A DNA stretch of 43,446 nt from a virus: positions 1 through 43,446 of IMG/VR virus record IMGVR_UViG_3300022928_000052; one strand, written 5' to 3'. Made by a program: the position numbers and the translations under genes. This document shows, piece after piece, positions 435 to 43,446 of this stretch. The notes under the pieces are model-generated. The model did not search any database. It worked only from the letters and a program-made list of their open reading frames with translations, and was not told the origin of the DNA. The stretch's first letter is position 1; the number at the start of each line of letters is the position of its first letter.

Positions 435-442
435 TATTTATG
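435..442 (-). promoter_or_regulatory. Possible variant late promoter (CATAAATA)
   Basis: The minus strand reads CATAAATA, one mismatch from the T4-type late box TATAAATA. It lies 7 nt before the ATG at 427 and overlaps the stop codon of the preceding gene. The placement resembles the perfect boxes before gp25 and others in this window, but the mismatch lowers confidence. Confidence 0.35.
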
Positions 443-3008
443 CTGTTCTTACATAGAGAGTATAAGTCTCAATGGTTGAATTCGTAGCCCCTATAGTGGC
501 ACCTGCGTAGTTGCCTGTGAATGTTCGATTGTAGTTTCCAATGAAGTTACGTGCATAGTTACCAATGTAATTACCCACAAAGTTTCTGGAATAGTTACCT
601 ATAAAGGTTGTTGTGAAGTTTCGACTGAAATTACCAATATAGTTACCAAGATAGTTATTTGTGAATCCATCAAGTCCAGTATAGACTGTCACACGAGTAC
701 GTTGATAGTTTCTACTATACTCACCAATAAAACTTCTTTGATAATCACCCGTAAAGTCGCCAACAAAGTTTCCAAGGAAATCACCAATAAAGTTACCAAG
801 GAAGTTAGTAGTAGAAGTTCTAGTACTGTTTCTGAGAAAATCCCTTGCAAAGTTTCTGGAGTAATTACCAAGGAAGTTACCACTAAAGTTACCGACATAA
901 GATGTCAGTGTTCTTCTTCTTACAGAATAAAGAGCATTATCTAACTGGCCGTCCAGTCCACCATCACCATCAAGTGCTTGAAAGTCTCCTTTTTCATACT
1001 CATATCCATCCGCATCATCCTTTATTCGGGTAATCTTCGACAACATTGTATGAAAATCTAGTAAACTCGCTGTCATAAAGGCTTCGTATGTCGGAACCAC
1101 AGTACTTGCAGTATCTGGGTCATAATAACCAGTTATCAATTCATACTGAGCATAAGTCAGATTAAACCCGCTTGTCAATACGTTACCATCGGCATTGGGG
1201 TCATAATAAGCTAGAGCAACCGCTACTTGGCCAGGAGATGGCAATACGCTTGTTCCCCAGTATACTCTAAATATTTTAGTGTTAATGTTATCACCATCAG
1301 CAATCGGGACTTGCCAGAATATATCACCACTGGAAATATAATCAAGACTCACTTTACTGTAATAGTATGCACTACTTGTACCAGTTGCCGTAACACTATG
1401 TCTAACATATTGATTGGTGCCTAGATAGTTACCAGTATAGTATGTAATGTCACCAGCCTTTACTGTACCTCGTGAGTAAACAGTAACATAGGCCATTTCG
1501 TCCAAAGAGTTTCTAGTAAATGCGCCAGAAAAGTTACGTGAATAGTTACCAGTGAAATCACCAGTAAAGTTGCCGATATCAGTTCTTTGAGAATCTCTGG
1601 TAGACGTTCTAGTAGAGTCTATTAAAGTGTTTCTTTGATAATTAGAATTACGAGTACGAAGGAAGTTACGTGAATAGTTACCAACAAAGTTGCCAGTAAA
1701 GTCAACTGCTGGGACTCTTTGACTATCACGAGTGTATTCGCCCAAGAAATTGCCAGTATAATTACCGAGGTAAGTTACACTTCGATTATAATTACCAACA
1801 AAAGTATTAGTAGAGGTTCTACCATATGTCGATACTCTGGTAGAATCTCTAAGAAAGTTTCCGCCCACACCTGAATAGTTACCAGTAAATCCTAATAAAC
1901 GAGAATAGTTACCTACAAAGTTACCTACATAATCACCAGCATAATCGAGAGTAGCCAGACGACTTCGAGTATAAACTCCACTCGTTGTTCTTTGATAATT
2001 ACCAATGTAGTTTCCTATGAAACCATTAGTGGTGAATGAACTAGTTCTTGGTAGGGAATATGTTGCTGAGTATGTACTGGTACGAGTAACATCATTAGTA
2101 CTAGCATAGGAACTACTTCTTGTTCTGTTATATGCAGCACTATAAGTAGATTCTCTTAGACGAGAGTAAGTAGATACACGTCCTCTAGTATAGTTTGCAT
2201 CAACAATATCTTGACGAGTATCTGTTGCAGTACCTTTAGATTGCCATGTACCAGACAAACCATTGTTGGTTGGAGTACCAGCAGAAGCACTGTAAATCTT
2301 ATATGAACCTACAGAATTATCAGTACCCGCAATCTTGTTTTGTAAACGAGTACCAATAGAATATTTGACTTGGTCGTCAGTCATTAACTGAAGACCTTGA
2401 TATGTACCAGTATCACCACTAGAACGTTTGATAGAAAATGGCAACACTTTAGTTGGTGGTGTCATTGAAGTTCTTCTATACAGATTATATTGTATAGATG
2501 TTCCATCAGTTCTAGTATCAGTCGTTACATTTGATAAGACTGTCGAATATCCACCAGACGGAGTTGATGTTGAAAGTTTATATGAGCCAGGATAGTCAGA
2601 TGTAAAGATACGTGAACCGACTCTATCGAGTAATGCACTCACATCAGAATCATTCATCTCACGAATAACTCTTTGTCCGTCACTGTCCCTCTGCATCACG
2701 GGAAGACGGTTATTACTTCCAGCAGGAGTAATGGTTCCTTTGGTTTGTCTAATCGGAGTCGTAGTTGTGGTGAATGATAAGAACGAACCATCACCGCCTG
2801 TTCCTACAGCAGAGTCATATGACGTATCAACCACGGAACCGATTGTATTAACAACCCCATGAATATTGAACGCAAGAGAACCTACGTCTGAACTATCGCC
2901 AGACGCAAGGTGTAGACCCGCTTGGTATGCTAAATAATTTTCTTCTGTCGATGAGAACTGAACAAAATCGGCACTAGCACTGTCTTTTAGTTTTACTGGA
3001 ACAGTCAT
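438..3008 (-). CDS. Tetrapeptide-repeat virion fibre-like protein (856 aa)
   Basis: The N-terminal domain (residues 1-140) is paralogous to the partial gene at 1-427. Residues about 140-260 are non-repetitive. Residues about 272-500 and 703-835 are dominated by a four-residue unit: aromatic (F/Y), any residue, G or R, then N, D, S or T, as in FVGN or YSRN. About two dozen copies of G-N-(F/Y) are present. A non-repetitive, probably globular segment (about 504-700) separates the two repeat blocks. A GGAGA ribosome site precedes the ATG. It lies at the distal end of the baseplate operon, where marine T4-like phages keep fibre genes. I recognise no enzymatic domain; a fibre or adhesin role is inferred from position, repetition and paralogy. 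Confidence 0.75.
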   Translation of the reverse strand: MTVPVKLKDSASADFVQFSSTEENYLAYQAGLHLASGDSSDVGSLAFNIHGVVNTIGSVVDTSYDSAVGTGGDGSFLSFTTTTTPIRQTKGTITPAGSNNRLPVMQRDSDGQRVIREMNDSDVSALLDRVGSRIFTSDYPGSYKLSTSTPSGGYSTVLSNVTTDTRTDGTSIQYNLYRRTSMTPPTKVLPFSIKRSSGDTGTYQGLQLMTDDQVKYSIGTRLQNKIAGTDNSVGSYKIYSASAGTPTNNGLSGTWQSKGTATDTRQDIVDANYTRGRVSTYSRLRESTYSAAYNRTRSSSYASTNDVTRTSTYSATYSLPRTSSFTTNGFIGNYIGNYQRTTSGVYTRSRLATLDYAGDYVGNFVGNYSRLLGFTGNYSGVGGNFLRDSTRVSTYGRTSTNTFVGNYNRSVTYLGNYTGNFLGEYTRDSQRVPAVDFTGNFVGNYSRNFLRTRNSNYQRNTLIDSTRTSTRDSQRTDIGNFTGDFTGNYSRNFSGAFTRNSLDEMAYVTVYSRGTVKAGDITYYTGNYLGTNQYVRHSVTATGTSSAYYYSKVSLDYISSGDIFWQVPIADGDNINTKIFRVYWGTSVLPSPGQVAVALAYYDPNADGNVLTSGFNLTYAQYELITGYYDPDTASTVVPTYEAFMTASLLDFHTMLSKITRIKDDADGYEYEKGDFQALDGDGGLDGQLDNALYSVRRRTLTSYVGNFSGNFLGNYSRNFARDFLRNSTRTSTTNFLGNFIGDFLGNFVGDFTGDYQRSFIGEYSRNYQRTRVTVYTGLDGFTNNYLGNYIGNFSRNFTTTFIGNYSRNFVGNYIGNYARNFIGNYNRTFTGNYAGATIGATNSTIETYTLYVRTA
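503..902 (-). repeat. Coding tetrapeptide repeat block 2 (12-bp period)
   Basis: This encodes residues about 703-835 of the 856-aa protein. Degenerate 12-bp units encode F/Y-x-G/R-N/D, for example FIGN, YSRN, FVGN, YIGN, YARN. The units differ at synonymous and second-residue positions, so this is an old, diversified array and not a recent perfect expansion. Confidence 0.8.
1508..2195 (-). repeat. Coding tetrapeptide repeat block 1 (12-bp period)
   Basis: This encodes residues about 272-500 of the same protein. It mixes R-x-S-T-Y units at the N-terminal side with F/Y-x-G-N units towards the C-terminal side. The register slips by two residues in places, for instance around YNRS-VT-YLGN. Confidence 0.75.
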
Positions 3009-3019
3009 GTTCTCTCCGA

Positions 3020-4507
3020 TTAATTAAGTTGTGTTCCATTCTCATCAAATATCAGTGGTATATCCGCTCGTAATGCATTTAAAGCTGCAACAAAATTATC
3101 TCTTTCTGCACCAACAAAAGCTACGTCTAAATCATTCAATGAACCCAGTCTTGCACTCTGTAACGTTGAATCCGAATCCAAGAGGAGGATATCGTCCGCA
3201 AGAGAGTTGATTGCTCTAACCAGATTAGTTCTATTTGCAATAGAACCGTCACTGTTAAGAATACCTAAATCACCTACTGCACTATCTAGTAAGTTTAAAG
3301 ACGAACCAATATTACCTGTAGTAAGATTATCACCACTTATTGCGTCCCCTACTTCAGTATGTAGTTCGTTAATTGCACCACGTAGAGTTGTTGCAGAAGT
3401 ATTTAATGCAGCAGCACCGATTTCGGTATCGTGTTCGTTGATTGCACCCGTCAGAGTCTTGGCAGTGGTTGTTAGATTAGTGTGTGGTCTCGCACCAATA
3501 TCACTATCCAACTCATTGATTGCGTCTGCGTGTGAGTTTGCAGTTGTTGTTAATACTTGAGTAGGTTCAACTGCGGTATTAAGAGTATCAATCTCTTGTT
3601 CTAATTCAAAGACTGCACCAGATACAGTTGATGCGGTAGTGCCCATCGCAACAGCAGTAATTGTTCCTAGTTCCGCATCAAGTTCATTAACCGCAGATGT
3701 AAGATTTGATGCACTGGTTGTTAGGTTAGTATGGGGTCTCGCACCAATATCACTATCAAGTTCATTGATTGCGTCAGCAACAGTTGTTGCAGTTGTATTG
3801 ATTGCCTGTTTAGGTTCAACAAAAGTAATAAGAACGTCACGGTCACTATCCAGTTCCGCAATCGCACCACTTACTGTAGATGCGATTGTTCCCATTGCAC
3901 CTGAAGTGATTATACCTAACTCTGCATCATGTTCATTGATTGCAGCTGTCAGATTCTTTGCAGATGTTGTTAGTGTTGTGTGTGGTCTTGCGCCAATATC
4001 ACTATCCAACTCATTTGCAGCAGCAGTTAGATTTTTTGCAATTGTCGTAAGATTAGTATGGGGTCTCGCACCGATATCACTATCAAGTTCGTTAACACCC
4101 GACACAAGGTTATTTGCAATAGTTGTAAGGTCAGTTGCGACCAGATTGTTTGATGTTCCTCGGATACCTACTTCTAGTTCATTAATACCTGATACGATAT
4201 CATTCGCATTAGTGGTTAAGTCAGCCTTAGCATTACCACCACCAGCGCCATGAAGGTCACTGTCGAGTTCATGCAGTGCAGATACGATGTTATCAGCACT
4301 AAAGTCTGCAAGGTCAGTTAAGACTAGATTATTAGAAGTACCACGAATTCCTAATTCAAGTTCGTTAATAGCTGCGACCGCACTAGAATCTTGATTAGTG
4401 TTTAGTCTACCAGTCGCACCTAAGTCTAAGGACACTGTATTGGTATTGGTCACCAACGTAGTGAACGTATCCTGAATCGTTGTAATTGTCGGTTGATTTG
4501 TTGCCAT
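3020..4507 (-). CDS. Repetitive fibre-like structural protein (495 aa)
   Basis: Nearly the whole protein consists of degenerate units of about 24-30 residues ending in A-(I/V)-N-E-L-D-S-D-I-G. Four copies are followed by ARPHT-x-LTT and others by less similar linkers. Spaced leucine, isoleucine and alanine residues suggest short helical or coiled-coil rods. No Cys and no enzymatic motif is seen. The start codon overlaps the stop of the 68-aa gene as TAATG, which implies translational coupling. Position and composition point to a tail-fibre shaft or baseplate-linked fibre. Similar INELDSDIG-repeat proteins occur in marine T4-like phages, from memory and not searched. Confidence 0.75.
   Translation of the reverse strand: MATNQPTITTIQDTFTTLVTNTNTVSLDLGATGRLNTNQDSSAVAAINELELGIRGTSNNLVLTDLADFSADNIVSALHELDSDLHGAGGGNAKADLTTNANDIVSGINELEVGIRGTSNNLVATDLTTIANNLVSGVNELDSDIGARPHTNLTTIAKNLTAAANELDSDIGARPHTTLTTSAKNLTAAINEHDAELGIITSGAMGTIASTVSGAIAELDSDRDVLITFVEPKQAINTTATTVADAINELDSDIGARPHTNLTTSASNLTSAVNELDAELGTITAVAMGTTASTVSGAVFELEQEIDTLNTAVEPTQVLTTTANSHADAINELDSDIGARPHTNLTTTAKTLTGAINEHDTEIGAAALNTSATTLRGAINELHTEVGDAISGDNLTTGNIGSSLNLLDSAVGDLGILNSDGSIANRTNLVRAINSLADDILLLDSDSTLQSARLGSLNDLDVAFVGAERDNFVAALNALRADIPLIFDENGTQLN
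3420..4175 (-). repeat. In-gene direct repeats of the 495-aa fibre-like protein
   Basis: Near-identical stretches encoding DSDIGARPHT recur around 3478-3515, 3730-3765, 3977-4012 and 4050-4085. They are embedded in longer imperfect repeats. They are coding repeats, in frame throughout. Confidence 0.75.
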
Positions 4508-23743: not shown

Positions 23744-24229
23744 ATGGCATATTCAGGAAGATATCGAGTAAAAAATACTAAGAAGTATGATGGTGACTAT
23801 ACAGCTGTAGTTTATCGTTCGTTATGGGAGAAACACGCCTTCAAATGGTGTGACGATAATCCCAAGGTAAAGAAGTGGTCTTCCGAAGAAGTCATTATAC
23901 CATATCTATATGAAGTTGACAAGCGTTATCATAGATATTTTATGGACTTGAAACTACTCATGGACGATGGGTCTACTTGGTTGGTCGAGATAAAACCAGA
24001 CAAGGAACGTAAACCACCTACAGGTAGAAACAAGACTAAGAGATATTTGAACGAAGCGATGACCTTTGTTAAGAATCAAAACAAGTGGAAAGCAGCCGAA
24101 GAGTTTGCGAAAGACCGTGGATGGCATTTTGTTATATGGACAGAGAAGAACGAACCACTCAAGACTCTTATTCCCAAATCAACAAAACCTCTGAAAAAAC
24201 TTAAACCTTTTCAAAAACGTAAAAAATGA
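23744..24229 (+). CDS. 4: Head completion nuclease gp4-like (161 aa)
   Basis: The sequence begins MAYSGRYRVKNTKKYDG, matching T4 gp4 (MAYSGKW...KYRGD). It continues with VYRSLWEKHAFKWCDDNP, EEVIIPYLYEVDKRYHRYFM, DGSTWLVEIKPDKE and P-P-x-G near residue 85. The fold is a PD-(D/E)xK-type nuclease with FMDL and E-I-K-P as the likely catalytic Asp and Glu-x-Lys. T4 gp4 (also 50/65) has 150 residues and is needed for head completion before tail joining. I chose the ATG at 23744 over the upstream GTG at 23717 because it matches the family start and has an AAGG site 5 nt upstream. The stop overlaps the next start (ATGA). Confidence 0.92.
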   Translation: MAYSGRYRVKNTKKYDGDYTAVVYRSLWEKHAFKWCDDNPKVKKWSSEEVIIPYLYEVDKRYHRYFMDLKLLMDDGSTWLVEIKPDKERKPPTGRNKTKRYLNEAMTFVKNQNKWKAAEEFAKDRGWHFVIWTEKNEPLKTLIPKSTKPLKKLKPFQKRKK

Positions 24230-25920
24230 ATCACGCACTAATTATCACTGGAGCTAATATAACGTATCCAGTCGGATACAGTGGTCGTGATATACCTGTT
24301 CGTGGAACAGGAGCACACAGGATTGCTTCACATTTAAGAGAAGCGAGGGGATGGGACGTTGAAGTTTTGGACTTTGTTGATGCGTGGTCAGACGAAGAAC
24401 TAAAAGATTTTGTTGATAGTCGGGTTACTCATGATACAAAATGGATAGGATTCAGTGTGTTCTTTACATACTCTATTTTTTCTGCACCACCGTTAGTAGT
24501 AAAACACAACAGGCTTATAAGATACATTAAAAAGAAATACCCTTGGATTAAAATTGTCGTGGGTGCAAATAAACTTGTAAATGTTATACGTCACGAGAAT
24601 GTAGATTACTTTTCCGTAGGTAATGGAGAACATGAAATCGTTGCTTTGTGTGATTACTTTGTTGGTAATGCATCTGAACCAAACGTCAAAGAGATGACCA
24701 ACCCATTTAATCTTATTGATATGACCAATAAGAAATTTAAAATCATTGATTGTTTCAAAGACTATCCCGCATTTCCACACAAGAACCCAAGAACATCATA
24801 CGAGGAAAGAGACTTCATACAAAAGAATGAAGTGTTAACTATAGAGTTATCACGAGGATGTATGTTCAAGTGTACATTCTGTGACTATGCACCACTGGGT
24901 GTCAAGGGAGACCATACCAGAGATGCAATAAACTTTGAAGAAGAGTTGCGAGAAAACTACGATAGATGGGGAGTGACTCGTTACGTGCTTGCGGATGAGA
25001 CTTGTAATGACCGTTCAGAGAAGATTGAGAAGTTTGCTAATGTTGTAAAGACATTACCCTTTCAACCTCAGTTTCATGGATTTGTTAGAGGAGACTTGTT
25101 TGTAAAACGAGCGAGAGAAGACTGGGATAATATGATTACTATGGGATTCACCAGTCACTCTATGGGACTTGAGTCGTTCAATCATGCGTCTGCAAAGTCA
25201 ATCAGAAAAGGAATGTCCCCTCTTATAATACAAGAAGGGCTGTTGGCAGGAGAAGAATACTTTAGAAAAAATGTATTATCGGGTAATCATTATAATGGAA
25301 CACTATCAATGATTGCGGGATTACCACACGAAACGTTTGAGACTCTTGACAATACTGCGGATTGGTTGAACAAGTATTGGAAGAACCAAGTAACAATGCA
25401 TGGACTATACATATCGCAACACGTGGGTCATGATGGTATTGATGCGGTATCTGAAATAGAAAAAGACCCGTCAAAGTACGGATACACATGGAGAAATAAG
25501 ACCCCTATTGATAGGATAGTTGAATCGTATTATTATACCAATTGGGAAGTAAAACGAATAATACCAGATAACGTTTCAATACATGATATGATAGAAAATA
25601 AAAATGTTGATTGGTTGAAACAAGAAGAACTAAAAGACCGAGCAAAAGAAACTATGCAACGTACATGGGTACATCCAAGTGGAGATTATGATTTTATTGA
25701 TATGGTAGAATGGAGTGCCAAGTTTCAATCTGATAGAATACAAAAACTAGGAAGACCAGAGAGTCTAAGTGGCTGGCACATGCACTGGTACAGTGTATTA
25801 GGATACGACTTAAATGATGTATATTCGGGCAACCCCCCAATTATAGGTCAGGATGATGTTGACCGATACTATGATTTTATTGAAAACTATAAAAAATCTA
25901 AGATAAATTGGTATAAATAA
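24226..25920 (+). CDS. Radical SAM enzyme with B12-binding-like N-terminal domain (564 aa)
   Basis: Residues 1-150 look like the Rossmann-type cobalamin-binding domain found before many radical SAM cores (ALIITGANITYP, WDVEVLDF, WIGFSVFFTYSIF, KIVVGANK, FSVGNGEHE), but the DxHxxG cobalt-ligand motif is not evident. The 4Fe-4S motif CMFKCTFC places Cys at about 212, 216 and 219, followed by a core with YVLADETCNDR, GFVRGDLF, MGLES and MIAGLPHET strands. The C-terminal 130 residues are not recognised. The substrate is unknown. It overlaps gp4 by 4 nt and is followed by virion genes, so it should be expressed late. Confidence 0.85.
   Translation: MNHALIITGANITYPVGYSGRDIPVRGTGAHRIASHLREARGWDVEVLDFVDAWSDEELKDFVDSRVTHDTKWIGFSVFFTYSIFSAPPLVVKHNRLIRYIKKKYPWIKIVVGANKLVNVIRHENVDYFSVGNGEHEIVALCDYFVGNASEPNVKEMTNPFNLIDMTNKKFKIIDCFKDYPAFPHKNPRTSYEERDFIQKNEVLTIELSRGCMFKCTFCDYAPLGVKGDHTRDAINFEEELRENYDRWGVTRYVLADETCNDRSEKIEKFANVVKTLPFQPQFHGFVRGDLFVKRAREDWDNMITMGFTSHSMGLESFNHASAKSIRKGMSPLIIQEGLLAGEEYFRKNVLSGNHYNGTLSMIAGLPHETFETLDNTADWLNKYWKNQVTMHGLYISQHVGHDGIDAVSEIEKDPSKYGYTWRNKTPIDRIVESYYYTNWEVKRIIPDNVSIHDMIENKNVDWLKQEELKDRAKETMQRTWVHPSGDYDFIDMVEWSAKFQSDRIQKLGRPESLSGWHMHWYSVLGYDLNDVYSGNPPIIGQDDVDRYYDFIENYKKSKINWYK
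25912..25919 (+). promoter_or_regulatory. Possible late promoter TATAAATA, 5 nt before an ATG
   Basis: The box overlaps the last codons and stop of the radical SAM gene (TGG TAT AAA TAA). It is exactly 5 nt from the ATG at 25925, which lacks a Shine-Dalgarno site. The same 5-nt spacing is seen at 15642 and 34130. Confidence 0.55.
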
Positions 25921-35206: not shown

Positions 35207-36054
35207 TGAATAATTTATACGATGTCTTCATCGAAAAGACCGATAGTAAAACAAGAGCATTGTTACTTGACGAAAATAGTTATGGAAGTCTATGGAAAAA
35301 GATACAAGATTTCATGGCATCTGACCCCACCTATGATTATACTGTAGAACAAGACAGTATCAATGCGATGATAATGTGGTCTATTATTATAAACAATATT
35401 ATTGTGCGATTAAGATACAATAATGTTTTGGTAGTGCCTTCGTTTAGAGACAGTAACTACCCAAGTCTATGGGACAATACTGTTGATAGAATTATGCCTA
35501 ACGTACAGAGTAATATTTGGCCTATAATTAATAAACACTTTTCGGTATCGACCAACGTATATGTCGCATATTCAGAAACACATCAAAGTTTCGCACGAAG
35601 TTTAATGAGACATTTCAATGTAAATCGAATTGCTGCGAACAAACCATATGTCATGGGAGATAGTACCTATATGGTTGACGTTCCAGATGACATAAAATTT
35701 GACGCAGTCTTCTTAGCAGGCATTCCGATGAATTCGGACGAGACTTTTGAAGCAAACGATATAAAGACGGATTTCTCTCCAGTTTGTACAATCGGGTTTG
35801 ACCTAATCGACTTGTACGAAACTCGTCATGATGGTGGAGACCTAGCCCAATCAGTCATTGACGGTACACCTTTACCTGCAACTCAACTCAGAATTACGGG
35901 TGACACAAAAGATATGTCTGAGATATCAGAACATATAAATAATACCATACATACTATGTCGCATTTACAAGAAAACGAAGAGTCTATAGGTAACCTAGAC
36001 GTTATCCTACAAAGACTGTCCGAAGTAATCAGAAAAGAATTCAAGGTATACTAA
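35206..36054 (+). CDS. Unknown protein B of a tandem paralogous pair (282 aa)
   Basis: It aligns with the previous gene through YNNVLVVPSFRDSNYPSL, then KFDAVFLAGIPMN-x-DETFEA followed by a CTIGFDLIDLYE segment, and ends E-F-K-V-Y. It has extra N-terminal residues (MNNLYDVFIEKTD) and a longer region after the FDLIDLY motif. Overall identity is low, so the duplication is old or the pair diverged in function, for example as a heterodimer. No catalytic motif is recognised. The start is coupled to the upstream stop by TAATG. Confidence 0.65.
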   Translation: MNNLYDVFIEKTDSKTRALLLDENSYGSLWKKIQDFMASDPTYDYTVEQDSINAMIMWSIIINNIIVRLRYNNVLVVPSFRDSNYPSLWDNTVDRIMPNVQSNIWPIINKHFSVSTNVYVAYSETHQSFARSLMRHFNVNRIAANKPYVMGDSTYMVDVPDDIKFDAVFLAGIPMNSDETFEANDIKTDFSPVCTIGFDLIDLYETRHDGGDLAQSVIDGTPLPATQLRITGDTKDMSEISEHINNTIHTMSHLQENEESIGNLDVILQRLSEVIRKEFKVY

Positions 36055-36734
36055 TGATTAAGTTTAAAAAGTTTATAACAGAGGGTGTTGATGACCCCGC
36101 TATTTTCAAAGCAGTTTTCCTTGCTGGTGGGCCTGGGTCTGGTAAATCATTCATCGTAGGTAAGACTGGTCTTCCCGCACTTGGTTTGAAAGTTATAAAC
36201 TCAGACGATGCCTATGAAGTTGCAATGAAGAAAGCAGGACTGGAAATGTCTCCTGAAAATATCTTCTCAGTTCAAGGTCAAGATATCCGTGGTCGTGCAA
36301 AAGCGCTCACAGGTAAAAAACAAGCACTATACCTTATGGGTAGACTTGGTGTTGTGGTTGATGGTACAGGTAAAGACTTTGATAAGGTCAAGAAACAAGC
36401 AAAGGCAATGAAAGACTTGGGTTATGATATCGCAATGATATTTGTTAACACTGACCTTGATACTGCAATTGCACGTGATAAAGCACGTGACCGTACTATT
36501 GGTGAGAAGGAAGTTACAAACTACTGGAAGACTGTTCAAAAGAACATTGGTGCATTCCAGACTTTCTTTGGTAAAAAGAATATGTTAATTGTTGATAACT
36601 CTGAAGGTAAGGATTACCAGAAAGAGACTCTCCGTGCATACAAAGATGTTCGGAAGTTCTTAGATAAAGAACCAGAGAATGCCAAAGCAAAATCTTGGAT
36701 TAAGAAAGAAAGAGAAAAGAAGAAAAGAACCTAA
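36054..36734 (+). CDS. P-loop kinase (zeta-toxin/AAA_33-like) with capsid-targeting-like N-terminus (226 aa)
   Basis: Walker A GGPGSGKS is at residues 25-32. LGLKVINSDDAYEVAMKKAG follows, then GVVVDGTGKDFDKV as the second nucleotide or substrate strand, IAMIFVNTDLDTAIARDKAR-x-RTIG with the arginine lid, and a Lys-rich C-terminus. The layout fits small-molecule or polynucleotide kinases of the zeta-toxin type. The first eleven residues, MIKFKKFITEG, resemble the targeting peptides of T4 internal head proteins (M-K-x-F-x-E-F-x-x-E), including an I-x-E-G site like those cut by the prohead protease. Packaging into the head is therefore possible but inferred. Confidence 0.78.
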   Translation: MIKFKKFITEGVDDPAIFKAVFLAGGPGSGKSFIVGKTGLPALGLKVINSDDAYEVAMKKAGLEMSPENIFSVQGQDIRGRAKALTGKKQALYLMGRLGVVVDGTGKDFDKVKKQAKAMKDLGYDIAMIFVNTDLDTAIARDKARDRTIGEKEVTNYWKTVQKNIGAFQTFFGKKNMLIVDNSEGKDYQKETLRAYKDVRKFLDKEPENAKAKSWIKKEREKKKRT

Positions 36735-36737
36735 GTT

Positions 36738-36812
36738 TGGCGCCCCCGCATGGAATCGAACCACGAGTTATGCGTTCGTAGCGCATCGTTTTATCCGTTA
36801 AACTACGGAGGC
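36738..36812 (-). tRNA. tRNA-Arg (anticodon ACG)
   Basis: A complete cloverleaf is visible on the minus strand: 7-bp acceptor GCCTCCG/CGGGGGC with one G-U pair, a 4-bp D stem GTTT/AAAC, a 5-bp anticodon stem ATGCG/CGCAT with loop CTACGAA, a T arm CGTGG/CCATG with TTCGATT, discriminator G, and an encoded CCA. The ACG anticodon (inosine after host editing) reads CGT and CGC. It is 75 nt long and its 3' end lies 4 bases from the stop of the convergent kinase gene. Confidence 0.93.
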
Positions 36813-36822
36813 AGTGATTGAT

Positions 36823-36898
36823 TGGCCGACCTACAAGGACTCGAACCTTGAACCCAAGTTTAGAAGACTCGTATGATATCCAGTTTCACCATAAGTCG
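36823..36898 (-). tRNA. tRNA-Arg (anticodon TCT)
   Basis: The cloverleaf has acceptor CGACTTA/TAGGTCG, D stem GTGA/TCAT, anticodon stem CGAGT/ACTTG with loop CTTCTAA, T arm CAAGG/CCTTG with TTCGAGT, discriminator G and an encoded CCA. It reads AGA. It is the first RNA after the consensus promoter at 36918-36946 and lies 10 nt from the second arginine tRNA. Confidence 0.93.
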
Positions 36899-36917: not shown

Positions 36918-36946
36918 ATTATATCAGTCTTGATATAAATTGTCAA
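36918..36946 (-). promoter_or_regulatory. Sigma70-type promoter for the tRNA pair, full consensus
   Basis: TTGACA (36941-36946), 17-bp spacer and TATAAT (36918-36923) on the minus strand. The expected start near 36911 is about 13 nt before the first tRNA. The -35 overlaps the last codons of the 208-aa gene upstream. Confidence 0.9.
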
Positions 36947-37569
36947 GTTCTTTTTGCACGAATCTTTACATTGTCACCAATAGGAATCTTGATGTTATTA
37001 TGAGAGTGGTATAGATTAAACTCAACATTAGGAAACTCCTTAAACATATTAGTCCATATGGGTCTCCAGTTGTTTGCGAGTCTAACAGTGTTACCAGTAC
37101 TGCGGTCTGACTCTAGAAGTAGGTCAGTGAAACTCTCTAGGTTCATATCAAAAATACTATCAAACCCATAGATGTGAACCTCGGTAGCCCTCATCTTTGC
37201 ACATGCATAATGGACTGCCATGTGGCCACAATTGAAGTTAGTTGCAGCCATCTTGGGGTCACCCTTTCCTGCCGCATATGGGGGAATATGAGTATAGAAT
37301 CCCTTGATAAGATGTGAGTATTTCATATAGAATGTTCCAGACTGTTCCATCCAGATTTTAGGTCTTTGACCCAATACCCAATCATACATGTCCAGTTTGA
37401 TGCGACCCTCTTGAAGTGCCTTCATCATCTTGAAGTCAACCATACAAGTTGCGTGTACTTCACTACGAGGAATTTCAAATGGGGGCATATTGCAAATCAA
37501 CAATTTGCCTGGCGTTCCTCTCTTAAAGATTCCCGCATGGTCACCATTACCTAGAACATTAACTCTCAT
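36943..37569 (-). CDS. Rossmann-like protein, possibly glycosyltransferase or MptE-like (208 aa)
   Basis: It begins MRVNVLGNGDHAGIFKRGTP, a nucleotide-binding-like strand and loop. Later NCGHMAVHYACAKMRATEVH, then IYGFDSIFD, resembles the S-G-x-x-A-x-x-x-A-x-x-x-G-A-x-x-I-x-L-x-G-x-D segment of DUF115/MptE-like proteins and some sialyltransferases. It sits at the end of the sugar cassette, 3 nt after the GroES-like gene. The identification is tentative; the substrate is unknown. Confidence 0.55.
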   Translation of the reverse strand: MRVNVLGNGDHAGIFKRGTPGKLLICNMPPFEIPRSEVHATCMVDFKMMKALQEGRIKLDMYDWVLGQRPKIWMEQSGTFYMKYSHLIKGFYTHIPPYAAGKGDPKMAATNFNCGHMAVHYACAKMRATEVHIYGFDSIFDMNLESFTDLLLESDRSTGNTVRLANNWRPIWTNMFKEFPNVEFNLYHSHNNIKIPIGDNVKIRAKRT

Positions 37570-37572
37570 GTT

Positions 37573-37827
37573 TTACTCTACAATCAACTTAATATCTAAT
37601 TGGTTTATTACCGCACACTTCAAACCATCAATCTCTACTGGCATGGATTTACTCCAGTCAAGAAATACTTTGTTCTTGGGTTTGATATCCTCAACCGTAT
37701 CACCAACTGCGATAACGATTGCTGGCTTATTACCAGACGTGACATCACCCGATAGGATAATACCACCTGCGGTTTTCTCTTCAACTTCTGCTTGTGTCAC
37801 TAGGACGTTGTTGTGTAATACTTTCAT
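37573..37827 (-). CDS. GroES-like co-chaperonin (84 aa)
   Basis: It begins MKVLHNNVLVTQAEVEEKTA, followed by GGIILSG at the position of the GroES mobile loop, whose I-V-L tripeptide contacts GroEL. Here it is I-I-L. VIAVGD and K-x-K-N-K-V-F follow, ending in D-I-K-L-I-V-E like the L-A-I-V-E end of GroES. It is about ten residues shorter than GroES and much closer to it than to T4 gp31 in visible sequence. A role in GroEL-dependent folding of capsid protein, as for gp31, is inferred. It overlaps the nuclease gene by 4 nt. Confidence 0.85.
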   Translation of the reverse strand: MKVLHNNVLVTQAEVEEKTAGGIILSGDVTSGNKPAIVIAVGDTVEDIKPKNKVFLDWSKSMPVEIDGLKCAVINQLDIKLIVE

Positions 37828-38231
37828 AGTTGTACTAATTCTCTATTTGCCAAATGTTGGTCTTTAATAATTTCTTTAGATTGTCCATTATACTCTACTG
37901 CATGGTAATTGTCAACCAAATATTGATTGATATCAATCCGACTACCATCGTCATATTCAACAACAAATGTACCAAGGATACGTCCGAACTTACCCTTACC
38001 ATCCTTTGTTGTTTTAAGAATAGGGGTTGTTCCTAAAGCTTTCTTGAGGAATGCTTTTGCAGCCAATCCATATTTCTTTTCAACTTTATCACGTGTTCGT
38101 GATTCGGGGGTGTCGATACCAAGTAAGCGAATACGTTCTTTTCTTAACCAGACACCAAAACCTAAATCGATGTCAACGTCAACGGTATCACCATCAACGA
38201 CACGTACTACTTTTGTTCTGTATTCATGCAT
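37824..38231 (-). CDS. Staphylococcal-nuclease-like (thermonuclease) protein (135 aa)
   Basis: The SNase fold pattern is clear: VVRVVDGDTVDVDIDLG, RIRLLGIDTPES with Arg35, Asp40 and Glu43 at the classical catalytic positions, KYGLAAKAFL, GKGKFGRILG with Arg84 in place of Arg87, and INQYLVDNYHAV. The start at 38231 overlaps the previous stop. The frame runs upstream to 38312, but that part belongs to the overlapped gene. No signal peptide is visible, so it would act in the cytoplasm, on host DNA or RNA. Confidence 0.88.
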   Translation of the reverse strand: MHEYRTKVVRVVDGDTVDVDIDLGFGVWLRKERIRLLGIDTPESRTRDKVEKKYGLAAKAFLKKALGTTPILKTTKDGKGKFGRILGTFVVEYDDGSRIDINQYLVDNYHAVEYNGQSKEIIKDQHLANRELVQL

Positions 38232-38439
38232 TCCTTTTTCCAAATCCAAAATGTTCAAGACAAACATTGAGTTTATCTTCTGCTTCTGCAATCTTACCGA
38301 TTTGCACTTCAATCGCTTCTACGATATCAGAGTGTTCTCCGATACCAGCAGGATTCTTTTGGTACACCGTAATGTTTGCTTGTGCAACCGCAATCTCACC
38401 TTCTAGTTTTTTAACCAATGCTTCAATTAGATAATTCAT
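38224..38439 (-). CDS. Small coiled-coil protein (71 aa)
   Basis: It begins MNYLIEALVKKLEGEIAVAQ. The sequence is mostly two helices with regular hydrophobic spacing and a short N-P-A-G-I-G-E loop between them, so a helical hairpin is likely. The start is fixed by AAGGAG 8 nt upstream, inside the end of the glycosyltransferase gene. The function is unknown; it may be a structural partner of its neighbours. Confidence 0.62.
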   Translation of the reverse strand: MNYLIEALVKKLEGEIAVAQANITVYQKNPAGIGEHSDIVEAIEVQIGKIAEAEDKLNVCLEHFGFGKRNA

Positions 38440-39088
38440 TCATTTGACTCCTTATTACTTCATTACCCTTCTTACCCGTGTGATGGATAATCTTTGGATT
38501 CTTTACTTGTATGTTATCTATGTAGTCTAATCTTAAAGTGTTATATGAGTGTGGTATAGGTTGAATGCATGATAACTTCTTGAGGGCATCACCACCCATC
38601 ATAAGATATAAAACCTCTTGGTCACCCTGTACAGGATTGCGAATACATTCGTCTGCCCACGCACGTAGGATATTAGGCGTTCCTTCTACTGCGACTACAC
38701 CAGAGTTATACCATTCTCCAAGTTCATCTCTACGAGTAGACCAAGGCCTGTCTTTGACCATACCCAGTTTACCCTTTTCGGTCAAATCAAAAATAGTTGA
38801 GATGTCATCGGTAACTTCACAATCAGTGTCCAACCAACAAACCTTTTCAACATCATCTAGTTTGGTTGCGTCCAGAATTGCACGAGGTTTCTTGAACCAC
38901 CCTTGTGCTTCACTCATGATACCAATAACCAAATCAAAGTGTTCTTCTGCAAGTTTACGACCGTCCTTGCTCATACCAAAGTCAGCACAAATAATTGGAG
39001 TCGTATTGTGTTCTCTATACTTCTTAATAAACCACGGCAATTGCCATTCGGTGTTTACGTCACACCCTGTTAAAAATACTTCACGCAT
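38423..39088 (-). CDS. Glycosyltransferase, GT8-like (221 aa)
   Basis: It begins MREVFLTGCDVNTEWQLPWF. The strand VCWLDTDCEV holds a D-T-D (DxD) metal and sugar-nucleotide motif, followed by EWYNSGVVAVEG and GDQEVLYLM, and IIHHTGKKG at the end, where GT8 enzymes have H-x-x-G. These are the usual landmarks of retaining GT-A transferases. The start is uncertain: ATGs at 39088 (overlapping the previous stop) and 39100 are both possible and neither has a well-spaced ribosome site. Confidence 0.75.
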   Translation of the reverse strand: MREVFLTGCDVNTEWQLPWFIKKYREHNTTPIICADFGMSKDGRKLAEEHFDLVIGIMSEAQGWFKKPRAILDATKLDDVEKVCWLDTDCEVTDDISTIFDLTEKGKLGMVKDRPWSTRRDELGEWYNSGVVAVEGTPNILRAWADECIRNPVQGDQEVLYLMMGGDALKKLSCIQPIPHSYNTLRLDYIDNIQVKNPKIIHHTGKKGNEVIRSQMNELSN

Positions 39089-39728
39089 CGATGATTTCAT
39101 ATCCTTCTTTCCAATTATGTTTTGCTTTACAACCTTCTTCAACTTGAATAGTCGTGAAAGTATCTCTAGCTTCTGCAACGAAAGGATAACACTCTTGTAA
39201 CCAAGGGAATGTGGTCAGATTTAAATAAACGTCAGTTGGTTTTGCATACAGTGGCGCATTCTCCACCAATAGTCTTGCACCAGCTGGAGTCACCATGTAC
39301 GCATGAGCGCCAGGAAAATATCGTTTAGTTGTTAACGGATTAATCCCTAACATTGGTGGAGTGTTCCACTTACCGTAAGATGGTTTTCCCATATTCATCA
39401 CATAGTTAGGAAACACAAATGGTAGTGGTGCCACCATCACGGCATCATGTTCAAAGATAACAAAGTTCTCGTTACCCTTGGAACAGGCTTCCCACAATGC
39501 GTAGTGTGATAGGAATGCCGAAATACAATTCAAGTTACGAGAATACTTCTCATCAAATTGTACGGGGTCAATACCCCTTGTCTTTAATAGTTCTACAGGA
39601 TTATCTTTAGGAGTAATGGCATCAAACATTTTAATTTGAAGTTCATGTCTCCATCCAGATTCGATACAACGTTCCGCAACCTTTAATGATTGTGGATTGT
39701 CTTTAATTGTAATTACAAATGCTTTCAT
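39081..39728 (-). CDS. LPS-type glycosyltransferase, GT25-like (215 aa)
   Basis: It begins MKAFVITIKDNPQSLKVAER. The middle reads NCISAFLSHYALWEACSKGN followed by FVIFEHDAVM, the GT25 pattern of S-H-x-x-x-W then E-D/H-D-A. The end has AYMVTPAGARLLVE. The start overlaps the previous stop (ATGA, 39728). GT25 enzymes add sugars to lipooligosaccharide. The next gene upstream is a paralogue with the same M-K-A-F start. Confidence 0.78.
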   Translation of the reverse strand: MKAFVITIKDNPQSLKVAERCIESGWRHELQIKMFDAITPKDNPVELLKTRGIDPVQFDEKYSRNLNCISAFLSHYALWEACSKGNENFVIFEHDAVMVAPLPFVFPNYVMNMGKPSYGKWNTPPMLGINPLTTKRYFPGAHAYMVTPAGARLLVENAPLYAKPTDVYLNLTTFPWLQECYPFVAEARDTFTTIQVEEGCKAKHNWKEGYEIIDA

Positions 39729-40438
39729 TGTGTTGTGGTTGACTTCAACCCCCTCTGTATAGTTGTATAATAAGGATACACAACCTGTAACCACGGAAAC
39801 ATCTGTTTACACATCAATGCATCATTAGGCCACATTCCGATATCTTTCACCTTATCTAGTAGTTTCTTAGCACCCTTGGGTGATATCATATATGCGGAAT
39901 TACCCGCAAGACCTTGGGGTACGTCCCAGTCATCTACACTAGGAACTGGTTGTAGGCCAACGAATGATGATACTTTTCTATGAAACTCTTGAGACCTTCT
40001 AGTTGCACCTCTTGGGTCATTAAGCCCTATTATACCACCTTTCCACTCTTCTGTCAAGTCATTAGGTTTTAATTGTCTGGCAAACAGTGCATCATGTTCC
40101 AGTACAACAATGGTCTCATCAAGGTCGATTGCTTTCTGCCAACATCTCATATGAGATATCATACACGCAACTCGATTTGGATGGTTCGCAGTTTTGTAAT
40201 GAGTAAGACGCAGGCCTGTTTTCATATCAAGACCGTCTTGGTGTTCGTCCAAAGGATATGTCCAAGCTATACCAGACATCTCCAAAGACTCCATTCCGTC
40301 ACCTATTGTCATAGGCGTAGTTGCGGGTAGAATAATTGGTTCTAATTTACTTTTAGTTTTCTTAATAGATTCAATAACCATACGAGTCGCAACTGTGGAC
40401 TCATGGTTGTTTATCATACTAATTATGAAGGCTTTCAT
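39725..40438 (-). CDS. Second GT25-like glycosyltransferase (237 aa)
   Basis: It begins MKAFIISMINNHESTVATRM and has ACMISHMRCWQKAIDLDE then VVLEHDALF, and AYMISPKGAKKLLDKV, so it shares the order of motifs of the neighbouring GT25-like protein. The tandem pair probably arose by duplication. The first ATG of the frame (40444) is two codons longer. It overlaps the upstream gene by about 20 nt. Confidence 0.76.
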   Translation of the reverse strand: MKAFIISMINNHESTVATRMVIESIKKTKSKLEPIILPATTPMTIGDGMESLEMSGIAWTYPLDEHQDGLDMKTGLRLTHYKTANHPNRVACMISHMRCWQKAIDLDETIVVLEHDALFARQLKPNDLTEEWKGGIIGLNDPRGATRRSQEFHRKVSSFVGLQPVPSVDDWDVPQGLAGNSAYMISPKGAKKLLDKVKDIGMWPNDALMCKQMFPWLQVVYPYYTTIQRGLKSTTTQ

Positions 40439-41177
40439 CAACATCTCTCACATACTCCCATCTCTCTGATAGGTAACATCCACCATGATAACTCTCATGA
40501 TAAAATCCAAAGGGTTCGGATAGTATTTGATACCATCCCTCTTCTGCACTTTTTAACTTCTTATCCTTATATAGAGAATCCACTAAGTCCGTATCCCAAC
40601 ACTCTCTTGGATGGATTATCAACGCATCATTGATATAGTAAGTAGTCTCCTTACTCATACCTTTAAGTTTATTGAAGTCATGAGTGCCATAGTAGTTCAT
40701 ACAATTGAATCCTTTCGGAATTATTCTTTCGTATGCATCTTTGATAATATCATCCCAAGGTAATTGGTCAGATACTATTACATCAAATCGTGTACGAATA
40801 ATCATATCGTATTCTTGTGGTACTGACTTCATCATCTCATTGTGTATGAGAATCTGTTTGTGCCAGTTCGCAGATGCATGTGCGTGTTTCAACTGACTAT
40901 GACTAGTGTCTCCCTCTTCGGCATTTTTAAGTAGTTTAGGAAAGATATCCCGTCTTAAACGAGACGCATCATCAGGATAGGCTTCAGTATCAAATACAGG
41001 ATGATATTTGTTTTCGGGTTCATCAAAATAGAAATCTACGGTGGTATCCACCGCACTTTGACCATTCCATAAACCAGTGAACATCTTATCGTGAGGAAGA
41101 ATTTCCCTCGAACGTTCTACCCACTTTGAATCACAAAACTCATTCCATCTACCCGATAGACACAATGCAATCTTCAT
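40419..41177 (-). CDS. Glycosyltransferase-like protein (252 aa)
   Basis: It begins MKIALCLSGRWNEFCDSKWV and contains the segment EYDMIIRTRFDVIVSD, a pattern common in small sugar-transfer or surface-polysaccharide proteins with an R-x-R-x-D core. The C-terminal part has YYINDALIIHPREC and Y-L-S-E-R-W. The precise family and sugar are not clear. The start at 41177 overlaps the previous stop as TAATG. Confidence 0.65.
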   Translation of the reverse strand: MKIALCLSGRWNEFCDSKWVERSREILPHDKMFTGLWNGQSAVDTTVDFYFDEPENKYHPVFDTEAYPDDASRLRRDIFPKLLKNAEEGDTSHSQLKHAHASANWHKQILIHNEMMKSVPQEYDMIIRTRFDVIVSDQLPWDDIIKDAYERIIPKGFNCMNYYGTHDFNKLKGMSKETTYYINDALIIHPRECWDTDLVDSLYKDKKLKSAEEGWYQILSEPFGFYHESYHGGCYLSERWEYVRDVDESLHN

Positions 41178-42523
41178 TAGCAACCACGTAAGTATGTCTC
41201 TAGGTCTTCGGGTGTACCAAGTCCCCACATCTCAGATGCTTCATGAATAAAGATTTTCTTACCCATTAGAATTGCCTGATTGAATACAGGACACACATAG
41301 AACTCACCGTTCACTCGTTTCTGCATAGCAATCATATCTTTTGCAGACTCAACATAATCCTCACCACGTTTCCAGTAATAGAAACCAACAGTCGCATTAT
41401 CACTGATTGGGTCTTTTTCGGCAACCTTGGTTACCATGCCATCATTATCAACTTTTGCATAACTCCACTTAGGGTGTGTTGCTTTAAAAGTAACAATACC
41501 ACCATCTGCGTTTAGTTCTTGCATCTTATACATAAACTCAATTGGATTCCAATCTACCCATTGGTCAGAGTTTGCAATAATCAGTGGTTGTTCATTGGCA
41601 ATATACTCTTCTGCAAGTAATGTCGTGCAAGCTGCACCTTCGGTAACACCATCTACTTCAATGATTCTACAGTTTGGTGCAATCAAATTTAACATAGAGT
41701 CTAAGTTATACTTTTCTCGGTGTTCCTTCTGTACAATAAAGATATAGTTTGCATCAATACCAAGGTTCTCGACCACAGTCTGAATCATTGGTTTACCATT
41801 GACATCAATCAAAGGTTTGGGAAAACTATATCCAGCTTTTGCAAATCGACTACCCGCACCCGCCATAGGAATCAATACGTTCATCTTTGGGTCAACCCAT
41901 TTAAGTGTCGTATTTTTGCCATTTTGAATTCTATCAACCAAACTTAGAGTAACATCTTCGGGAGAACTAACTCGTAGAATTTGATGTTCAGGTACACCAC
42001 TAGAATATGCAGACATCAATCCTGTCGGAGAATCTTCGATGATGATACACTCAGAAGGATGTACACCCAAACCTATCATTGCATTCCACCAAATCTCAGG
42101 GTGTGGTTTTGGGTTGGTAACATCGTAACTACTCAGAACAACATCCACATACTCATCAAGTTGTAACATCTCTACGCATTTTTGTACAGTCTTACCGATA
42201 GCATTAGAACAGATACCAATAGTAAATCCAAGTTCTTTAAGTTTACCAAAGACTTCAGTAATGTCCTTGTTCGGTTTGATAGTGTTCATTTTGTAGTAAG
42301 TGACAGATTGTTTGTGTATTTGAAGTTTATCAATCACGTCCTTCGATACACCCAGCCTTTCCAACTTATCTTCTGTAGTCAGACCGTCATACTTAGATAG
42401 ATGTTCCTTTACTGTTATTTGTGGATAACCAAACTTATCCAACGCTTCATTCAAAGCATCGAAATGTATTTTCTTAGTACTGACCAGAACACCGTCTAGG
42501 TCAAATAGAATTGTCTTTATCAT
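41177..42523 (-). CDS. Bifunctional HAD phosphatase / sugar nucleotidyltransferase fusion (448 aa)
   Basis: Residues 1-205 form a HAD hydrolase of the beta-phosphoglucomutase type: ILFDLDGVLV with Asp8 and Asp10, GICSNAIGKT (Ser/Asn motif II), NPKPHPEIW (Lys) and IIEDSPTG (acid motif IV). Residues about 214-448 are a sugar-phosphate nucleotidyltransferase: NVLIPMAGAGSRF, SFPKPLIDVNGKPMI, IANSDQWVDWNP and GLGTPEDLETYL. The pairing suggests dephosphorylation or phosphate transfer plus activation to an NDP-sugar, feeding the neighbouring glycosyltransferases. The start overlaps the methyltransferase stop (ATGA). Confidence 0.88.
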   Translation of the reverse strand: MIKTILFDLDGVLVSTKKIHFDALNEALDKFGYPQITVKEHLSKYDGLTTEDKLERLGVSKDVIDKLQIHKQSVTYYKMNTIKPNKDITEVFGKLKELGFTIGICSNAIGKTVQKCVEMLQLDEYVDVVLSSYDVTNPKPHPEIWWNAMIGLGVHPSECIIIEDSPTGLMSAYSSGVPEHQILRVSSPEDVTLSLVDRIQNGKNTTLKWVDPKMNVLIPMAGAGSRFAKAGYSFPKPLIDVNGKPMIQTVVENLGIDANYIFIVQKEHREKYNLDSMLNLIAPNCRIIEVDGVTEGAACTTLLAEEYIANEQPLIIANSDQWVDWNPIEFMYKMQELNADGGIVTFKATHPKWSYAKVDNDGMVTKVAEKDPISDNATVGFYYWKRGEDYVESAKDMIAMQKRVNGEFYVCPVFNQAILMGKKIFIHEASEMWGLGTPEDLETYLRGC

Positions 42524-43137
42524 TTATTTACCGCTATAATATAAGTGTCACCACACTTAGTTTCCTTGCGTCTATCGTATGTCTTGTGACTATATTCTGA
42601 GAGTTTAGTCATAAGACGGTTATGTTTCAACATGTCATACAGGTCTAATCTATTCTGAATCCAAGGGTGTTGTAACTCTGCTTGACTCATACGATGCATA
42701 GGCCATATATCTTCGATAAAGTATGTTCCATCATCTTTTAGGAACGGGATACAGTTCTCAAAGGTCAGTCGATTAGCTTCGGGCCAGTGAGCGCCATCAT
42801 CGATAATAAAATCAAACTCGACATCACCCCACGCATTCCTCATTTTCGTACCAAGAGATGCGTCCATAGAATCTGCTTTTAACCACTTGACACGTTCTTC
42901 ACTCAGAATATCTAGGTCTTTGGGATTGGTGCGAGTAAAGATATCAATAGTGTAAATTGTTCCGTTAGGAAAGTATTCATGAAATGCACGAGTAGAAGCT
43001 GCCTTAAACGTACCAATCTCAAGAAGATTGATAGGTTCTTCTCTTACAGACTCCATGTATGGTTCATACTCTTTATAGTAATGATGTTTCTCTGTGCCCT
43101 TATCGCACTTGTATTTGTCAAATAATTGTTTAAGCAT
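42520..43137 (-). CDS. SAM-dependent methyltransferase (205 aa)
   Basis: It begins MLKQLFDKYKCDKGTEKHHY. Motif I is NLLEIGTFKAAST (about 38-50), then TIYTIDIF, FDFIIDDGAHWPEANRLTFE with the D-D-G-A-H of macrolide/sugar O-methyltransferases (MycE and MycF type), and YFIEDIWP. The ATG at 43137 fits the family start and overlaps the previous stop by 8 nt; the frame continues to 43188 without support. In this cassette an O-methylation of a sugar is likely (inference). Confidence 0.8.
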   Translation of the reverse strand: MLKQLFDKYKCDKGTEKHHYYKEYEPYMESVREEPINLLEIGTFKAASTRAFHEYFPNGTIYTIDIFTRTNPKDLDILSEERVKWLKADSMDASLGTKMRNAWGDVEFDFIIDDGAHWPEANRLTFENCIPFLKDDGTYFIEDIWPMHRMSQAELQHPWIQNRLDLYDMLKHNRLMTKLSEYSHKTYDRRKETKCGDTYIIAVNK

Positions 43138-43446
43138 TCCAATAGTTCCTCGTTGCACCTGTATCAAAGTCAAATCCCCAATGGTCAATGTCCTTTTGAT
43201 ACCAATCGGCTACAATCTGTATAGTTTCTTTAGTGTATATATCCCTGTAAGATATATCGTATCCTGTAACATTACTAGGTGTCACATTATGTTTTAAATT
43301 AAAATATAAATTTATGTCCTCATCATAGTTTTCAAAACGAAGAATGTTACTATTAATTTTTTCGTCTTCTTCAACAACATAATCGTATTGAGTTAACCAA
43401 CTACGAATAGGGCACATATAAAAATCCTCGGTTGGAAATTCATTTC
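43130..43446 (-). CDS. Sulfotransferase-like protein, C-terminal part (runs off the window)
   Basis: The frame is open to the right edge, so the N-terminus and the PAPS-binding loop are outside the window. The visible part has C-P-I-R-S-W-L-T-Q-Y-D-Y, then NILRFENYDEDINLYF and ISYRDIYTKETIQIVADWYQ with K-D-I-D-H-W-G-F-D-F. This matches the end of sulfotransferase-like proteins (L-R-F-E-x-L, then Y-R-x-Y-Y-x-x-x-T, then D-I-x-x-F-G-Y). A role in sulfating a glycan is likely from the cassette, but the fold is inferred from the C-terminus alone. Confidence 0.6.
   Translation of the reverse strand, partial: NEFPTEDFYMCPIRSWLTQYDYVVEEDEKINSNILRFENYDEDINLYFNLKHNVTPSNVTGYDISYRDIYTKETIQIVADWYQKDIDHWGFDFDTGATRNYWNA

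Follow-up and report, generated by a model that had tools for sequence, protein, structure and literature searches.

What is encoded by the gene for a four-residue aromatic repeat near one end of this viral DNA, and what do the repeats and the non-repetitive stretch between them do for the phage? The window analysed here is the whole 43,446-nucleotide stretch of IMG/VR record IMGVR_UViG_3300022928_000052, and in it the gene, designated A, is followed by the start of a paralogue, B (Table 1). We propose, with a probability of roughly 65%, that the gene A product is a baseplate-attached tail fibre, one of a pair, with a regular shaft of tetrads and an exchanged, receptor-contacting module. This reading rests on the baseplate/tail-fibre locus, a fibre-assembly homologue downstream, the swapping of the module, the existence of a module family and the regularity of the shaft; the predicted pLDDT below 50 in the repeats, an N-terminal domain without a fold match, a conserved C-terminus and window runs too irregular to display the family's 12-residue superperiod count against it.

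Table 1. Features of the repeat gene, its paralogue and the adjoining upstream genes (window coordinates)
Feature	Position	Strand	Remarks
Paralogue B start, first 142 aa	2..427	(-)	truncated by window end; 10 bp after gene A
Putative repeat fibre gene, paralogue A, complete	438..3008	(-)	856 aa, ATG start
C-terminal tail, aa 826-856, conserved	441..533	(-)	...GNYAGxTIGxxxxxIETYTLYVRTA; 43-84% identity in family including paralogue B
Repeat block 2, aa ~704-839	492..899	(-)	most regular tetrad block of the protein
Embedded non-repetitive region, aa 501-703 (~200 aa)	900..1508	(-)	swapped/deleted among close relatives
Module core inside embedded region, aa 545-703	900-1376	(-)	leave-one-out HMM
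Repeat block 1, aa ~271-500	1509..2198	(-)	degenerate Y/R/S/T-rich stretch, then [FY]-x-[GR]-[ND] tetrads
N-terminal domain, aa 1-270, conserved	2199..3008	(-)	identity ~40-82% among BLAST-found family members
Tail-fibre-like protein, 495 aa, directly upstream	3020..4507	(-)	phrog_25848 tail fiber protein, E=1.9e-14
Virion structural protein, 68 aa	4507..4713	(-)	phrog_473, E=3.6e-15
DUF4815 / phrog_358 baseplate-region protein, 1733 aa	4713..9914	(-)	conserved upstream neighbour of family

An earlier note on this DNA had placed the feature at 438-2195 and described two repeat blocks with a non-repetitive stretch of about 200 residues between them. The architecture was confirmed, and the interval does hold the repeats, the insert and the C-terminus; it omits the N-terminal 270 residues (2199-3008), which define the family. 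The protein contains 26 GN[FY] units, against a mean of 0.96 and a maximum of 5 in 2000 composition-shuffled versions, and 24 successive spacings among its 40 [GR][ND][FY] units are exactly 4. Autocorrelation maxima fall at lags 4, 8 and 12 in both blocks (0.26, 0.30 and 0.30 in block 2, versus about 0.02-0.07 at most other lags), with none in the middle region. Two kinds of tetrad occur, x-G-N and x-R-N, with a consensus that is mostly [FY]-[TVASLI]-[GR]-[ND]; many units of the window protein are x-R-[NDT]-[FYS] and not G-N, and block 1 opens with a degenerate form of the repeat that is rich in Y/R/S/T (aa ~280-330). The same note had held a period of four to be unlike collagen or pentapeptide repeats, which agrees with our results: the observed periods are 4 and 12, there is no Pfam match, and the sequence fits neither the collagen-like (period 3), the pentapeptide (5) nor the octapeptide gp5/VgrG (8) consensus.

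The second of these periods is a property of the family. Across a set of 56 family proteins (clustering at 85% identity), the two tetrad types, G and R, recur with a period of three, that is, a 12-residue superperiod: correlations at lags 3, 6 and 9 are 0.20, 0.24 and 0.33 (z=7.4, 4.8 and 4.6), and those at lags 1, 4 and 8 are negative; the runs of the window protein are too short and irregular to reveal it alone. R tetrads start with Y more commonly than G tetrads do in all 46 of the 46 testable proteins, and the aromatic that follows an R tetrad is mostly F; this Y-x-R-N-F coupling is detected in the window protein by itself (p=0.026 and 0.003). The usual family unit is F-x-G-[ND]-Y-x-G-N-Y-x-R-N. 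Since superperiod and aromatic coupling are kept while TRF finds no tandem DNA array in the window gene, we infer that the repeats are under selection for a regular structure and are not the product of recent duplication.

The strongest competing explanation is that the repeats form an intrinsically disordered, sticky Tyr/Phe/Arg/Gly/Asn linker, whose period would record only its duplication history. In composition, the repeats are similar to sequences made of aromatic/Arg stickers and Gly/Asn/Ser spacers. AlphaFold2 lends it further weight: in the monomer model of the window protein (20 sequences), aa 1-235 are fair to good, the N-terminal pLDDT being mostly 70-95, and the repeats score 20-39; in that of a paralogue B from locus L003 (58 sequences), the N-terminal domain is mostly at 80-96 and the repeats at 33-45, giving 20-45 across the repeats as a whole. 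A monomer prediction is nevertheless a weak test of intertwined trimeric fibres, and the low-confidence repeats of the L003 model give a hint of order, with 23/32 residues of the aromatic-x pairs predicted in short (2-residue) strands and 28/32 G-N residues in turns. Several properties of the sequence also argue against disorder: relatives hold a near-continuous four-residue register for up to about 200 tetrads, tetrad position 2 is largely confined to T/V/A/S/L/I in the family, the superperiod and the coupling outlast DNA identity, and length changes are often in register. We therefore regard a disordered linker as unlikely. As for the N-terminal domain, it is predicted to contain three helix-plus-beta segments, with helices near aa 23-35, 120-136 and 211-228, and is probably the part that attaches to the virion. 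Foldseek found no credible counterpart for its fold (best PDB match E=1.2; best BFVD match E=0.005, TM 0.14) and nothing credible for the full low-confidence model. Sequence comparison likewise gave no credible match, whether the whole protein or profiles of the N-terminus and module were run against the PDB, or the protein, the N-terminus and the insert against Pfam and PHROGs.

The genomic context points to a tail fibre. The window phage is T4-like, encoding gp6-, gp8-, gp9/10-, gp53- and gp32-like proteins, and the gp6-, gp8- and gp9/10-like baseplate genes, the DUF4815 protein and the tail-fibre gene lie directly upstream of the pair, so that the repeat gene sits within a tail-fibre/baseplate locus and the earlier description of its product as fibre-like gains support. 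By baseplate, the nearest named relatives are C48C1, Melnitz and HTVC008M, and in the last two the corresponding genome region carries fibres. Our scan of IMG/VR found relatives at 62 marine viral loci, and an HMM of the N-terminal domain recovered 101 proteins among the retrieved family loci, that of the window included. A DUF4815-like protein is encoded just upstream and on the same strand in all 53 of the 53 loci that show it. In locus L004, genes for a fibre-assembly homologue (phrog_3304, E=5.5e-15) and for a tail-fibre-like protein of 1749 aa follow the pair downstream. Family genes are paired in tandem at 40/60 loci, mostly 8-11 bp apart. The start of B in the window is 40% identical to the N-terminus of A (E=1.6e-19), and A and B have this domain in common; most members that are complete also share the final ~31 residues. 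The only GenBank phage with a homologous N-terminus, among 50,697 records, is C48C1 (Kyanoviridae), and a pattern scan of 84,980 prokaryote species genomes found no relatives of the N-terminus. Matches in Enterococcus phages were rejected as translated DNA repeats whose frames differ from the annotated genes, and an apparent excess of contigs ending inside family genes (about 20/62 by eye) was discarded as roughly what contig sizes predict.

Could the protein be another virion fibre, such as a neck or whisker fibre, a head-attached fibril or some other structural element, with no part in host recognition? The protein does combine a conserved end, the presumed attachment part, with a hypervariable module, as a tail fibre would, but this module lies between two conserved ends and not at the usual C-terminal tip. 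Moreover, the annotation of a tetrapeptide-repeat protein of Synechococcus phage S-RIM2, described below, says no more than 'structural protein', and its gene adjoins neck genes. We judge this explanation improbable, given the constant place of the family directly after baseplate and tail-fibre genes, the fibre-assembly homologue downstream, and a pattern of module replacement in near-identical relatives that fits host recognition.

Pairs of close relatives illustrate that pattern. In loci L002 and L012, the DNA of gene A is 96-100% identical except at aa ~480-680, where identity falls to 45%; in L013 and L020 (93-100% identical elsewhere), about 118 aa are missing from one gene in the module region; and L014 and L036 differ at the same site. 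Replacement or deletion in relatives that are otherwise 96-98% identical points to receptor binding, and the module is most likely the receptor-contacting part of the putative fibre; its exchange is probably a way in which the virus alters what it binds. The module belongs to a divergent family with a faint signature (YYWxV ... VxWxGxxV ... DGxxYxRGxF ... YYxIRR), and non-repeat segments bearing it sit at other shaft positions in some family proteins. The embedded domain proposed earlier is thus a real module, recurrent and swapped. In leave-one-out HMM searches, 17/20 segments ranked first against 571 decoys and shuffles; as the segments had been selected by eye on the basis of this signature, the family can be delimited only approximately. 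Judged by sequence profile, the window insert is firmly tied to this family (E=3.6e-5, rank 1 of 572, with a profile built without its orthologues), and the tie is weak for some of its kin, several orthologues with a large insert reaching only E=0.03-1.7. The module of one relative matches phrog_650 (function unknown; E=2e-4). Origin of the hypervariable stretch from a diversity-generating retroelement (DGR) was rejected: the substitution spectrum is mixed and not adenine-specific, and the whole module is replaced.

Repeat number behaves differently. The earlier note saw in the slippage of 12-bp units an easy way to alter length and host range. Repeat lengths are equal among contigs at least 99% identical, blocks are equal in most pairs at least 96% identical (including gene B of L002 and L012, at 96%), and it is the module that varies instead. 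Slippage fares better over greater distances in paralogue B: at 95% identity, gene B of L013 and L020 differs by one 4-aa unit, and at 80-88% identity all gaps are multiples of 4 aa in two pairs (8/8 in L003/L006 and 8/8 in L010/L030), a pattern that is less clean in other pairs of this range and, because the aligner favours in-register gaps, is supportive only. TRF periods are multiples of 12 bp in 357/384 cases, which partly follows from the peptide period, and some arrays in relatives contain 100% identical copies. Over longer times, 12-bp slippage or unequal recombination, mainly in B, is plausible. That repeat number is the main adaptive variable is highly improbable, since the in-register indels and identical copies in relatives that would favour it are outweighed by the equal block lengths and by the lack of a DNA array in the window gene.

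How does the family compare with known systems? The protein of C48C1 (OQ984149; WJE88074.1) shares the N-terminal domain (35% identity, E=2e-37), the tetrad repeats, the C-terminal ETYTLYVR tail and the kind of locus, but it is four times longer (~3347 aa) and annotated only as 'hypothetical protein'; we found no paper on this phage. The four-residue G-N period itself is already known and is not unique to this family. Large proteins of structural or fibre-like type with the same period, and with G-[ND] at positions 3-4, occur in two other marine phages, S-RIM2 ('structural protein', AGH06777.1) and Marine virus AG-345-D19. In these, position 1 is aliphatic ([VL]-T-G-[ND]) instead of aromatic, and R tetrads are lacking; the S-RIM2 protein also lacks the N-terminal domain, the HMM of which finds only C48C1 among four reference loci. 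The triple-stranded beta-helix of the T4 gp5 C-terminus and VgrG (octapeptide V-x-G-x5) is likewise a periodic, Gly-containing beta needle, with a period of 8 and a Val interior; it gives a weak sequence match to the S-RIM2 repeat and none to the window protein, which has no credible PDB match. Most tail fibres differ in carrying a variable receptor-binding tip at the C-terminus, which in the window protein is conserved. In crAss-like phages, BACON domains are repeated in tandem and horizontally exchanged in a tail-associated protein (PMC6949934); the recurrence of exchanged domains in such a protein is a point of likeness, and the differences are the domain itself and a tandem array versus single modules within a tetrad shaft. 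Our search for literature on tetrapeptide-repeat tail fibres returned nothing relevant, and neither the aromatic form of the repeat, R tetrads included, nor the N-terminal domain nor the inserted module turned up elsewhere in the libraries searched.

To return to the tail-fibre reading, we propose that a marine T4-like phage makes two baseplate-attached fibres from the gene pair. The protein would be located in the virion, as its locus context suggests, and the N-terminal domain would anchor it there. The tetrads may build an elongated, regular shaft from triplets of the form F-x-G-[ND] / Y-x-G-N / Y-x-R-N, each structural unit spanning about 12 residues; the 12-residue periodicity is observed in the family, and a three-dimensional shaft is what it suggests. 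On this shaft would sit the compact module, which is exchanged, gained or lost between close relatives and which may contact the receptor, and the shaft would slowly lengthen or shorten as 4-aa units are gained or lost in register, for the most part in the paralogue. The family may thus be a kind of tail fibre with a new aromatic/R repeat, and possibly a new fold. More tentatively, and with the odds somewhat against it, we suggest a new beta-helical fibre fold of ~12 residues per coil with aromatic and Arg ladders, a rod carrying a mobile receptor-binding module at varying heights, in a widespread marine group that is nearly absent from phage genome collections. Pfam, PHROGs and the PDB miss the family, as does every GenBank phage record except one, and its simple, testable grammar of 4 and 12 residues could yield such a fold. 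In uncultured marine phages, the module that is swapped offers a specific candidate for the receptor-binding site, and in metagenomic data it could serve as a marker of differences in host range.

Other observations concern the family, its neighbour and the rest of the window. A short family member (L054:10001-11314) has the same conserved ends with other repeats between them (NYAGPT units and GAVNYLGEA-like units), which implies that the shaft type itself is replaceable, and in a 2344-aa relative (L041:12998-20032) an insert that is not of tetrad type (YSRFSPNYGGGGVWIDY) recurs along the shaft in near-identical copies. The 495-aa neighbour (3020-4507) is itself built of longer repeats (NELDSDIGARPHTNLTT... 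and variants). Beside T4 baseplate-like genes lies a gene (24226-25920) for a radical SAM protein, which shows a weak B12-binding match. A Zeta-toxin/AAA kinase-like protein (P-loop kinase; 36054-36734) adjoins two tRNA-Arg genes (36738-36898), and the minus strand at 36943-43188 carries a group of genes for glycosyltransferase-like (families 8 and 25), HAD/nucleotidyltransferase and methyltransferase proteins, possibly an island in the phage that makes or modifies surface sugars.
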